This document shows positions 15,040-25,092 of a stretch of DNA of 64,000 bases, one piece after another. The stretch is from contig NZ_AP014924.1 of assembly GCF_001544015.1 (NCBI RefSeq), positions 3,286,001 to 3,350,000 on the forward strand, given 5' to 3'. The notes under the pieces are model-generated. The model was not told where the DNA came from, did no database searches, and saw nothing but the letters and a program-made list of their open reading frames with translations. Each line of letters opens with the position of its first letter. The first letter of the stretch is position 1. Both the position numbers and the translations under genes were made by a program. Origin of the DNA: Limnochorda pilosa. GTDB lineage: Bacteria; Bacillota; Limnochordia; Limnochordales; Limnochordaceae.

Positions 15040-19055
<4,016 letters not shown>

Positions 19056-21554: not shown

Positions 21555-22795
21555 AGGTCTTCGTGCTCAACTCGGGCAGCTCGTCGGTCAAGTACAAGCT
21601 GTACGAGATGCCCGATGAGGCCGTGCTGGCCTCGGGGCAGGTGGAGCGCATCGGTATGGACGACGCGGCGGTCACCCACCGCGTCCCCGGGCGGGAACCT
21701 TACCGGGTCCAGGAAGAGATCCTGGACCACACGACCGCGATCCAGCGGGTGTTGGGCCTCCTCACCGAGGCCCACGATGGGGCCGCGGTCCTGCAACGCA
21801 TCGACGAGATCGATGCCGTGGGGCACCGGGTGGTCCACGGCGGCGAGGCGTTTCACGGATCCGTCCGGGTGACGCCCGCGGTGAAGCGGTCGATCCGGGA
21901 GCTCTCCGAGCTCGCGCCGCTGCACAACCCCCACAACTTGGCAGGCATCGAGGCGGCCGAGGAGCTGCTCCCAGGCGTTCCCCAGGTGGCCGTCTTCGAC
22001 ACCGCCTTCCACGCCCGCATGCCCCGGCATGCCTTCCTCTACGCGCTTCCCCACGTTCTCTACCGCCGCTACGCGGTTCGTCGCTACGGATTCCACGGCT
22101 CGTCCCACCGGTACGTCGCCGAGCGGGTCCGCACCCTGCTGGGAGATGGAGGCACGGCCCGCATCATCACCTGCCACCTGGGCAACGGCGCCAGCATCGC
22201 GGCCGTGCAGGGAGACCACTCCATCGACACCTCCATGGGCTTCACGCCTCTCGAGGGCCTCATGATGGGCACCCGCTCGGGCGACGTGGACGCCGGGGCG
22301 CTCCTCTACGTCATGGCCCGGGAGAACCTCTCCCTGGCCGAGGCCGATGCCATGCTGAACAAGCACAGCGGCGTCCTGGGGATCTCGGGACTCGCGTCGG
22401 ACATGCGGGAGATCGAGGAGGCGGCCGACGCCGGCAACGAGACGGCCCGGCTCGCCCTGGAGATGTACGCCTACCGGATCCGCAAGTACATCGGCGCGTA
22501 CGCGGCGGCCCTGAATGGGGTCGACGCGATTGCCTTCACCGCCGGTATCGGCGAACACTCGTGGCGGGTGCGCGAGGACGTCGGCGCGTCGCTGGGCTAC
22601 CTGGGCGCCGAGCTGGACCCCGAAGCCAACCGGGCCGCCCGGGGCGAAGCGCTCATCTCGACCCCCCACAGCCGGGTGCGCCTCTACGTGGTGCCCACCG
22701 ACGAGGAGGTCGTCATCGCCCGCGACACGGTGGCCGTGGTGACGGCCGACCGCGAGCCGGTGGCCGCCCGTCGCCCCGGGGCTCGTCGCGGTTGA
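21551..22795 (+). CDS. ackA: Acetate kinase
   Basis: Transfers phosphate between acetyl phosphate and ADP, giving ATP and acetate, or the reverse. It has 414 residues, near the usual 400. The N-terminal LNSGSSSVKYKLYE, FDTAFHARMP, GFHGSSHRYV, the ATP-binding CHLGNGASIAAVQ and MGTRSGDVD are all intact. GTG 21551 overlaps the hbd stop. No phosphotransacetylase gene is adjacent. A butyrate kinase is less likely, since length and motifs fit AckA. Confidence 0.95.
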   Translation: MKVFVLNSGSSSVKYKLYEMPDEAVLASGQVERIGMDDAAVTHRVPGREPYRVQEEILDHTTAIQRVLGLLTEAHDGAAVLQRIDEIDAVGHRVVHGGEAFHGSVRVTPAVKRSIRELSELAPLHNPHNLAGIEAAEELLPGVPQVAVFDTAFHARMPRHAFLYALPHVLYRRYAVRRYGFHGSSHRYVAERVRTLLGDGGTARIITCHLGNGASIAAVQGDHSIDTSMGFTPLEGLMMGTRSGDVDAGALLYVMARENLSLAEADAMLNKHSGVLGISGLASDMREIEEAADAGNETARLALEMYAYRIRKYIGAYAAALNGVDAIAFTAGIGEHSWRVREDVGASLGYLGAELDPEANRAARGEALISTPHSRVRLYVVPTDEEVVIARDTVAVVTADREPVAARRPGARRG

Positions 22796-22820
22796 AAGGG
22801 CGTCCGCTCCTGCCCATAAT
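22792..22820 (+). promoter_or_regulatory. Sigma-A-type promoter for ccdA
   Basis: TTGAAA (22792-22797), a 17-base spacer and CATAAT (22815-22820) match the housekeeping consensus at 5/6 and 5/6. It lies across the end of ackA and 26 bases before the ccdA ATG, allowing separate expression of ccdA. Confidence 0.65.
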
Positions 22821-22845
22821 GGAGGCGCGAGATACGAGAGGGGGT

Positions 22846-23583
22846 ATGAGTGTGCCCGGAACCGAGGTGGGTGTGGCCATCGCCTTCCTGGCGGGGGCGG
22901 CTTCCATCGTCTCTCCTTGCGTCATCGCCCTCATCCCGGCGTACGTGAGCTATCTCTCGGGCCTGAGCCTCTCGGAACTCTCGGCGCACCCGGGGGAGGG
23001 CGGCGCGCCTCGCCGCCGGGTGATGGCCGGGGCGCTCCTCTTCGTGCTGGGCTTCACCGTGGTCTTCGTCGCCTTCGGGGCCACGGCTACGGCCCTGGGG
23101 CGATCGCTGCTCCTCTACCAGGACCTCCTGCGACGCCTGGCCGGAGTCCTCGTCGTTCTCTTCGGCATCTACCTCACCGGGCTCGTGCGCATCCCCTTCC
23201 TCGAGCAGGAGCGCCGGCTCGACCTGGGTCGCATGCCCCGGGGGCTGGCCGGCGCCTTCCCGGTGGGCATGGCCTTCGCTGCCGGGTGGACGCCGTGCGT
23301 CGGCCCCGCGCTGGCGTCGATCCTCTTCCTGGCGGGAACCCAGCAGACCCTCTGGCAGGGTGTGGGGCTCCTCCTGGTCTACTCGCTGGGCATGGCGTTG
23401 CCCTTCCTGGCCATGGCCCTCTTCATCGGCCGCTTCCAGAAGTGGCTCCCCCGGCTGGCCCGCCAGGGACGGTGGATCTCCCTGACCAGCGGCGCCCTGG
23501 TGGCCCTGGTGGGCGTGCTGCTCTACACCAACGCGTTCTTCCGCCTGGCAGGCCTCTTCAACTACTACCAGTGGGGCCTATGA
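22846..23583 (+). CDS. ccdA: CcdA-type thiol:disulfide transporter
   Basis: Membrane protein of 245 residues that moves reducing equivalents across the cytoplasmic membrane for cytochrome c maturation or other extracytoplasmic thiol reduction. Six hydrophobic segments are visible. The two redox cysteines sit in IVSPCVIALIPAY (helix 1) and GWTPCVGPAL (helix 4), as in CcdA/DsbD-beta. ATG 22846 follows AGAGGGGGT. No thioredoxin-like partner or cytochrome c maturation gene is adjacent, so the acceptor is unknown. Confidence 0.92.
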   Translation: MSVPGTEVGVAIAFLAGAASIVSPCVIALIPAYVSYLSGLSLSELSAHPGEGGAPRRRVMAGALLFVLGFTVVFVAFGATATALGRSLLLYQDLLRRLAGVLVVLFGIYLTGLVRIPFLEQERRLDLGRMPRGLAGAFPVGMAFAAGWTPCVGPALASILFLAGTQQTLWQGVGLLLVYSLGMALPFLAMALFIGRFQKWLPRLARQGRWISLTSGALVALVGVLLYTNAFFRLAGLFNYYQWGL

Positions 23584-23696
23584 CCCCTGAGCCCCCGCCT
23601 GACTCCGGGCTGCCGTCCGCCCCTACCCCGGGTGGACGGTACCGTCTCCGCTCCCCGGTACCGGTCCCCTTGCCCCTCCAGCCCGCGAGAGGCCAC

Positions 23697-23841
23697 CCGC
23701 GTTCGAGCCGCAGGGTCCTTCCCGGCAGCCGCACGGCCCCGGCGGAGCCAGGAGGGCGGAGCCGGGCCCGCGCGGAGCGAGTGGAGGCCTGGAGGGCCGG
23801 AGCGAGCGCGCGCCGGGAAGCACCCTGCGGCTCGAACGCGG
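23697..23841. repeat. 30-base near-perfect inverted repeat around an 85-base core
   Basis: The left arm 23697-23726 and right arm 23812-23841 are complementary at 29 of 30 positions; the single mismatch is a C facing a C near the inner third. The 85-base core is purine/GC-rich and contains the motif at 23786-23808. The element fills most of the 285-base gap between ccdA and the AI-2E gene and ends eight bases before a TATAAT box. The palindromes ACGGTACCGT (23637-23646) and CCGGTACCGG (23655-23664) lie just before it. It could be a mobile miniature element, a regulatory RNA fold or a terminator. Confidence 0.85.
23786..23808. repeat. 23-base repeat shared with 40544-40566, copy 1
   Basis: It begins GGCCTGGAGGGCCG and matches the sequence at 40544-40566 at 21 of 23 positions, in the same orientation. 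It lies in the core of the inverted-repeat element. Both copies are intergenic. Confidence 0.45.
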
Positions 23842-23845
23842 CCTG

Positions 23846-23854
23846 TGGTATAAT
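23846..23854 (+). promoter_or_regulatory. Extended -10 promoter directly before the AI-2E gene
   Basis: TGGTATAAT gives a perfect TATAAT (23849-23854) with the TGn extension. No good -35 lies 16-18 bases upstream; that position is inside the right arm of the inverted repeat. The GTG start is only 15 bases after the -10, so a transcript started here would have a leader of about eight bases. Confidence 0.6.
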
Positions 23855-23868
23855 CCCCGCGAAGGGAT

Positions 23869-25092
23869 GTGGCGGCGACGCTGGAGCGGCTCCTGCAGCC
23901 CAAGACGTGGCTCTTCCTGGCAGCGCTGGCGCTGGTCCTGATCTACCGGGTGCCGCTGGGGACCACCCTCCTCCCCTTCTTCATGGCCTTCCTCCTGGCC
24001 ATGCTCATGGACCCGGCGGTGAGCTGGGTCCAGCGACGCACCGGGATCCGGCGGACCGTGGTGGTGCTCGCGGTCCTGCTCCTGGTGATCGTGCTCACCC
24101 TCGGGCTCCTGTCGATCATCTTCGTCCGGGTGGTGGGCGACCTCATCAACCTGGCCGGGCTCCTGCCCGACTACCGCAAGGAACTGATCCAACTCACGGG
24201 GGACGCCATCACCGAGGTGAATCGTCTGGTGGAGGCCTTGCCCCCGGAGGTGGGCGCGTACGTCACCACCGGGGTGGAGGATTTCAGCCGCCAGGCCCTG
24301 GGCTTCGTCCAGAACCTGGTTCAGCGCCTGCTGGCCGGCCTCACGGGCCTTCCCAACCTCCTGGTGGTGGCGGTGATGGCGGTGATGGCCTCCTACTTCC
24401 TGTCGCGGGACAAGGAGAAGCTGGGCGAAAGCCTGACACGCCTCTTCCCGCCCGAGCGGCAGGAGGTCGTCCAGCGGGTGCAAGAGCGGGTCTTTCAGGA
24501 CCTGATGGGCTTTCTGCAGGGCCAGTTCCTCATTGCGCTCATGACCACGTCGCTCTCGATGCTGGTCCTCTTCCTCATGGGCGTCCCCTACTGGACGCTC
24601 CTGGGGCTCATCCTGGGGATCCTGGACTTCATCCCGGTGGTGGGCCCCAGCGTGGTCCTCTTCCCGTGGGCACTGGGGGCCATCCTCTTCGATCGGCCAG
24701 GGCAGGCTCTCTGGCTGCTCCTGCTCTACTTCGGCATCTTCTTCACCCGCCAGCTCGCGACGCCCCGGTTGCTGGGCACCTCCATCGGCATCCACCCGGT
24801 GGTGACCCTGATCTCCATCTACGGGGGCATCATCTTCTTCGGACCGGTGGGGATCCTGCTGGGACCGGTGCTGGCCATCGCCGGCAAGGCGGCCTGGCTG
24901 ACGCGCCTCACGGCCCGGGAGGAGATCGCGGGGATGGAGGCCCAGGGGGCTTTCTCCCCGCCCGACGCGCCGGGCTCGGCGGCGGGGCCGGCGAACGCTC
25001 CGGCCGGCGAGGCGGAGGAAGCCCGCCGGCAAGCGGTCGAGGAGGCCGAGACCTCCCACCGTTCTCCGGCATTCAGGCCCCCCAACCCCTGA
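23869..25092 (+). CDS. AI-2E family transporter (YtvI/PerM-like membrane protein)
   Basis: 407-residue polytopic protein of the AI-2E/PerM family, whose members export small molecules or ions; the substrate cannot be read from sequence. About seven to eight helices are arranged as in the family: two pairs at the N-terminus, a soluble loop at about residues 95-160, and a C-terminal bundle with LDFIPVVGPSVVLFP and the glycine-rich IYGGIIFFGPVGILLGP. The Ala/Glu-rich cytoplasmic tail after about residue 345 is unconserved. GTG 23869 has GAAGGG close by. An ATG at 23867 is out of frame. Confidence 0.87.
   Translation: MAATLERLLQPKTWLFLAALALVLIYRVPLGTTLLPFFMAFLLAMLMDPAVSWVQRRTGIRRTVVVLAVLLLVIVLTLGLLSIIFVRVVGDLINLAGLLPDYRKELIQLTGDAITEVNRLVEALPPEVGAYVTTGVEDFSRQALGFVQNLVQRLLAGLTGLPNLLVVAVMAVMASYFLSRDKEKLGESLTRLFPPERQEVVQRVQERVFQDLMGFLQGQFLIALMTTSLSMLVLFLMGVPYWTLLGLILGILDFIPVVGPSVVLFPWALGAILFDRPGQALWLLLLYFGIFFTRQLATPRLLGTSIGIHPVVTLISIYGGIIFFGPVGILLGPVLAIAGKAAWLTRLTAREEIAGMEAQGAFSPPDAPGSAAGPANAPAGEAEEARRQAVEEAETSHRSPAFRPPNP

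Follow-up and report, generated by a model that had tools for sequence, protein, structure and literature searches.

What is a nearly perfect 30-base inverted repeat doing between two genes of Limnochorda pilosa: is it part of a promoter, a regulatory RNA, a terminator or a mobile element? In the window, the whole 64,000-nucleotide stretch of DNA analysed here, its arms (23697-23726 and 23812-23841) are complementary at 29 of 30 positions around an 85-base core, at exactly the coordinates given by an earlier sequence-only reading, and can be extended inwards to 39 nt at 87%. That reading considered such arms unlikely by chance. Indeed, at the 71% GC of the window, ~1e-7 pairs of 30 bp are expected that match at 29 or more positions across a spacer of at most 200, and a scan for pairs with at least 26 of 30 matches yielded 11 registers, all of them shifts of the focal locus. 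RNA folding, one of the checks it had proposed, predicts a stable structure for 23690-23850 (MFE -119.3 kcal/mol, z = -6.55); the hairpin is very stable on either strand.

The focal site and its empty counterpart

As had been stated, the repeat lies in an intergenic gap, between the end of a CcdA/DsbD-type gene (22561-23583, + strand; PF02683, 4.3e-12; true start probably near 22846) and the start of an AI-2E/PerM-type transporter gene (about 23869-25092, + strand; PF01594, 2.7e-54). The extended -10 of the latter, TGGTATAAT (23846-23854, + strand), in which TGG precedes TATAAT (23849-23854), had also been correctly located eight bases past the right arm and is outside the element. An equal box occurs at the element-free site of G001, the only genome of the same genus that was searched. 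There, the focal gene pair and the TGGTATAAT box are kept, the element is absent, and the distance from the upstream stop to TATAAT is ~54 nt versus 265 nt at the focal site, a difference of which ~65 nt are unaccounted for by the palindrome. To judge from this comparison, the -10 box at the focal site is ancestral and was not brought by the element. The absence of the element where genes and box are kept suggests, as the simplest reading, that the focal copy most likely inserted in the lineage of the window next to an existing promoter; the empty site of G001 could instead have arisen by deletion. The 7-mer CCCGCGA occurs as a direct repeat on either side of the focal copy, which is at chance level. 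The description of the repeat as ending at a promoter is true of the focal site and not a trait of the family, whose copies elsewhere are mostly 3' of genes.

Elsewhere in the window (16185-19040, - strand), a gene for IMP dehydrogenase (GuaB) is interrupted in its catalytic loop (GPGSI / CTTR) by an intein, inserted in frame and bearing a LAGLIDADG-type domain (PF00478, PF14890, PF14528).

A conserved three-way junction

Two points go beyond the earlier reading: the 85-base core consists of two hairpins, and the sequence recurs in the genome. The family fold is a three-way junction (Y) of a long outer stem, P1, and two hairpins, P2 and P3. At the focal locus P1 is formed by the two arms, the left one unlike other copies in sequence, with its pairing kept. 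P2 (23729-23775, + strand) has a GGA/GGA internal loop and the apical loop AGGAG (23750-23754), and P3 (23777-23807, + strand) has GA/GA and GGA/GGA internal loops and the apical loop TGGAG (23790-23794), as predicted from folding, from eight seed copies and from covariation. Within the entire element (23697-23841), a covariance model matches 23713-23825 on the + (purine) strand with 86.7 bits (E 1.7e-14), the sole significant match in the window.

Each folded alone, the eight seed copies adopt essentially one common shape. P2 reads as a stem, a GGA/GGA internal loop and GCC-AGGAG-GGC; P3 reads as GC-GA-GC-GGA-stem-GGA loop-stem-GGA-GC-GA-GC. In the eight-copy alignment 96% of cells are paired, and 48 cells are double-changed versus 13 in shuffles. 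An alignment of 82 copies, which leans towards the covariance model to which it was fitted, has 90% of cells paired, 922 double-changed cells versus 293 in shuffles and a covariation score of 0.705 versus 0.160; when partners are slid by 1-3 columns as a control, pairing falls to 30-45%. Conservation is highest in the apical GGA triplets (100% in P2 wherever a letter is present) and in the purine internal loops. The P1 columns have a mean identity of 59%, complementarity being kept though the sequence differs between copies. The fold is conserved and the stem sequences are not. Since arm sequence varies in this way, a dimeric protein that reads the arms specifically, another early suggestion, seems unlikely. 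The two sides of a P3 internal loop tend to agree, as GGA/GGA or GAA/GAA, mixed loops being less common (Fisher p = 0.011). At one orthologous gene end of Eremiobacterota (L092, L140, L142, L149), all four copies have a P3 with a perfect, AT-richer stem, lacking purine internal loops and retaining the loop GGA.

The mismatches also carry information on the strand. In the part of P1 outside the model, 980 Watson-Crick pairs are accompanied by isolated purine-strand mismatches, 19 of them G.T and two A.C; inside the model the ratio of G.T to A.C is 70 to 25, and since the copies are kin neither set of counts represents independent events. A cruciform of duplex DNA would treat both strands alike, so that the G.T excess points to the purine strand as the folding strand, either as RNA or as single-stranded DNA.

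Copies and host range

A BLAST search with the element, also suggested at the outset, revealed further copies in the same genome and in relatives. In its own 3.817-Mb genome, it returned the focal locus and ~8 dispersed places at 79-91% identity, and the covariance model brings the identifiable copies to at least ~10, of which three are degenerate; copy numbers here and below are lower bounds, the best candidates of each genome having been scored. Among Limnochordia relatives there is at least one copy in G001, and at least two in each of the order mates G013 and G011. Most high-GC order mates, which serve as a negative control, had no match among the best of thousands of first-look candidates, and in the phylum of the window 9 of 300 genomes had matches among the best candidates scored, its own genome included.

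A scan of GTDB with the P3 pattern found 14 loci, of which the covariance model confirms two each in the Bacillota MAG ZC3RG10 (the same as G013, judging from scores and lengths), in the Eremiobacterota MAG palsa_1479 and in a deltaproteobacterial MAG; one locus in a Spirochaetaceae MAG is a weak match. Whole-genome search of palsa_1479 gave at least 15 scored copies, and among this MAG and its relatives 21 of 41 genomes have matches (best candidates scored). The family is therefore present in at least three phyla: in Limnochordia and other Bacillota, in Eremiobacterota and in a deltaproteobacterium. Plasmid and phage collections held no similar DNA and viral contigs no exact P3 pattern, and a plasmid or phage origin was rejected on these grounds. 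No description of such a family was found in the open-licence full-text literature. This is a new repeat family, defined by structure more than by sequence.

Two local arrangements may be added. In the deltaproteobacterial MAG, L087 and L077 are tandem copies 309 bases apart whose long arms are much alike. In G095, L112 and L129 sit inside a larger conserved unit with more palindromes in the right flank (CGGCCGCGCAAGCGCGGCCG).

Evidence for mobility

The clearest evidence of movement comes from G371 (one contig, 3.10 Mb), which has at least 18 matches to a unit of ~195-225 bases. All 15 units examined are flanked by direct repeats of 8-10 bp, a few with one mismatch, and all 15 carry short ATGACTAT-type terminal repeats; for the first seven units tested, the longest flanking repeat has a mean of 9.0 versus 6.05 for shuffled pairs. 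Such target duplications of ~9 bp together with terminal repeats clearly mark the family as a transposable element of the MITE type in G371. One of the 15 units lies inside an insertion sequence of the ISAs1 family (NF033564, 3.6e-123) with a 9-bp duplication of its own, AAAATAAAA, and near-identical copies of the composite of ISAs1 and unit are present in this genome, which indicates that the unit first inserted into the IS and was afterwards multiplied along with it. ISAs1 was rejected as parent of the G371 copies, the unit being a hitch-hiker with its own duplication within the IS. In L160, L165 and L170 of G371 (positions 84-1710), the ISAs1-family IS bears the Y-shaped unit downstream of the transposase gene.

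The units of G252 are ~240 bases long, with duplicated terminator-like hairpins on their flanks. A degenerate IS1182-type copy in the same genome has a terminal repeat, CAGGYTGTTGACAAA, which the ends of the units resemble; the abundant IS1182 of G252 has different ends and was discarded as parent of the units. In L179-L185 the hairpins on both sides are similar, as if insertion had doubled a whole terminator.

No target duplication is detectable around the Limnochordia copies, the focal one included, or around those of Eremiobacterota. Mobility is seen in G371 only, and for the focal copy we infer it. According to the covariance model alone, the Limnochordia copies and the transposable unit of G371 would form one family.

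Genomic context and evolution in place

Several Eremiobacterota copies are found at orthologous gene ends, each in two to five genomes. At such orthologous sites the differences between arms are largely paired changes. Two Limnochordia copies (L058 and L059) are located in a common spacer that separates divergent genes for a ctpA-like protease and a histidine-kinase-like protein (named by eye); here the core is 87% identical and the flanks ~75%, and the arms are wholly different. Possible causes of the paired changes are selection for the folded strand and template-switch correction of quasi-palindromes, which is documented (PMC7202029, PMC8604942). The strand bias and the matching of P3 internal loops speak for a measure of selection acting on the fold. 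Insertion into pre-existing palindromes, which might also explain variable arms, is not favoured, because orthologous arms drift in place with compensation and because many Eremiobacterota copies share the end motifs ATCGTGCC and GCCACGAT outside P1.

Eremiobacterota copies lie between convergent genes in 34 cases, in (-,-) context in 18, in (+,+) context in 6 and between divergent genes in 3, and the right-hand gene faces the element in 54 of 63, its stop codon often 15-110 nt away; these counts come from a rough gene caller and are inflated by orthologous loci. The purine strand is there antisense to the adjacent gene end, and all 11 close opposite-strand pairs of copies are in (-,+) order. 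Limnochordia copies have mixed orientations, some being located between divergent genes.

Nature of the element

Taken together, these observations make it probable that the focal sequence is a copy of a small, non-autonomous, MITE- or REP-like mobile family built around a palindrome of ~110-200 bases. The miniature mobile element proposed among other options by the sequence-only reading is thereby strengthened by the ~10 dispersed copies, the empty orthologous site and the 9-bp target duplications of the family in another genome. Like MITEs, the copies are small, non-coding and dispersed in spacers, are present in multiple copies with empty orthologous sites and fold into stable hairpins, with terminal repeats and target duplications (15 of 15 examined) in G371. 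The ATGACTAT-type ends of G371 and the IS1182-like ends of G252 are candidate terminal inverted repeats for recognition by a transposase. They differ from MITEs in a three-way-junction core that is conserved across phyla and across units with unlike ends, in stems that change in pairs, and in that Limnochordia and Eremiobacterota copies show no duplication. Moreover, several copies at orthologous sites resemble vertical inheritance under constraint more than free movement, which is a point against a mobile element. No autonomous partner for the element of the focal genome was identified.

A plausible course of events would start from a repeat family with a common fold, as observed. Its members would be mobile, as seen from the ~9-bp duplications and terminal repeats of G371 and as suggested for Limnochordia by dispersed copies and the empty site. 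They may be mobilised in trans by IS transposases that recognise the ends of the element, of which the G252 units offer a hint. After insertion the arms would drift yet stay complementary, the pattern found at orthologous sites, presumably because the folded purine strand is under selection, because quasi-palindromes are corrected by template switching, or both. Copies would be retained for the most part in 3' spacers, at a distance from promoters, a pattern observed for Eremiobacterota (rough gene caller) and not for Limnochordia.

Integron attC sites provide another precedent: structure rather than sequence is conserved, the sites lie 3' of genes and the bottom strand folds. The family shares with them a conserved structure and a position 3' of genes and, apparently, the folding of the bottom strand. 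It differs in that no GTT core boxes or GTT/AAC end boxes of attC type are obvious by eye and in that its copies are single, scattered, between convergent genes and vertically conserved.

The strongest alternative, which we nevertheless consider unlikely, is a structured non-coding or cis-acting RNA, in which the purine strand would be transcribed, the Y fold would be the functional product and copies would arise by duplication. Strong covariation, conserved GGA loops, the retention of copies at orthologous gene ends and the bias of mismatches outside the model towards G.T (19 versus two A.C), as expected of a single folded strand, are all consistent with it; single-stranded DNA would, however, yield an equal strand bias. 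The target duplications of all 15 G371 units, the antisense orientation of the purine strand in Eremiobacterota, the want of an Rfam match and the lack of CsrA in four bearers argue against it. In Rfam the vicinity of the focal locus had a single weak and unrelated match and six further loci had none, and an RNA family of that collection was rejected as no curated covariance model matched; the regulatory RNA first suggested is still conceivable, with no Rfam family to which it could belong. Hairpins bound by CsrA/RsmA present GGA in a C-G-closed apical loop, and each element has two such loops, so that CsrA is the obvious candidate binder. CsrA is found in 17 of 21 bearing genomes and is below the cut-off or absent in G011, G013, G144 and G185 (89-96% complete). 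Because CsrA does not reach the family cut-off in these four bearers and is present in most non-bearing genomes, a role as CsrA sponge was rejected.

Distinctly less probable is a transcription terminator or mRNA 3'-end stabiliser of neighbouring genes, often acting in both directions. The location of most Eremiobacterota copies 3' of genes (34 convergent versus 3 divergent), the great stability of the hairpin on both strands and the terminator-like hairpins flanking the G252 units would fit this function. Among the flanks of 82 copies, by contrast, a T-run was noticed at L050 only and none at the focal copy, so that a canonical intrinsic terminator was rejected for want of a consistent U-tract; several Limnochordia copies lie between divergent genes, and the strand favoured by the mismatch bias is the antisense one with respect to the upstream gene. 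The two-way terminator of the sequence-only reading is, in general, unsupported.

That the element is a REP/BIME repeat mobilised by a RAYT (Y1) transposase is very improbable. REPs are concentrated 3' of genes and in convergent spacers and frequently form close inverted pairs (PMC3733652), and the family resembles them in being palindromic, dispersed and similarly placed, often with close inverted pairs. REPs are, however, defined as palindromes of 20-40 bp with a GTAG/GGAG or CGTC tag at one end (PMC3733652), whereas the family has 110-200 bases and a Y-shaped fold, and no GTAG/CGTC end tag was identified on its copies by eye. The RAYT domain PF01797 was not found in five bearing genomes (G000, G001, G011, G013, G062), on which ground the identity was rejected; in G061 its two matches cover only 31 model positions.

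A chance palindrome or an assembly error of single-copy arms can be dismissed in view of the ~1e-7 pairs expected and of a fold repeated in many unrelated assemblies.

Implications

One covariance model joins repeats that ordinary sequence search divides into unrelated families. It is tempting to go further than a mobile family and to propose, tentatively and with more doubt than conviction, that the Y core is a selfish module defined by its fold, active in single-stranded form (ssDNA or RNA) and spread across phyla inside unrelated miniature transposons and ISs, its stems being rewritten in pairs by correction or selection. The many natural replicates of paired stem change at orthologous sites could make template-switch correction and selection for structure separable, and mobility could be tested directly in a bearer that is in culture and has recent copies, for instance the species of G371. 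Recognition of the fold by a transposase or host factor, should it occur, would be an unusual principle for small mobile DNA. If the fold-defined module is real, it would represent a mobile element whose heritable identity resides in secondary structure and not in sequence.
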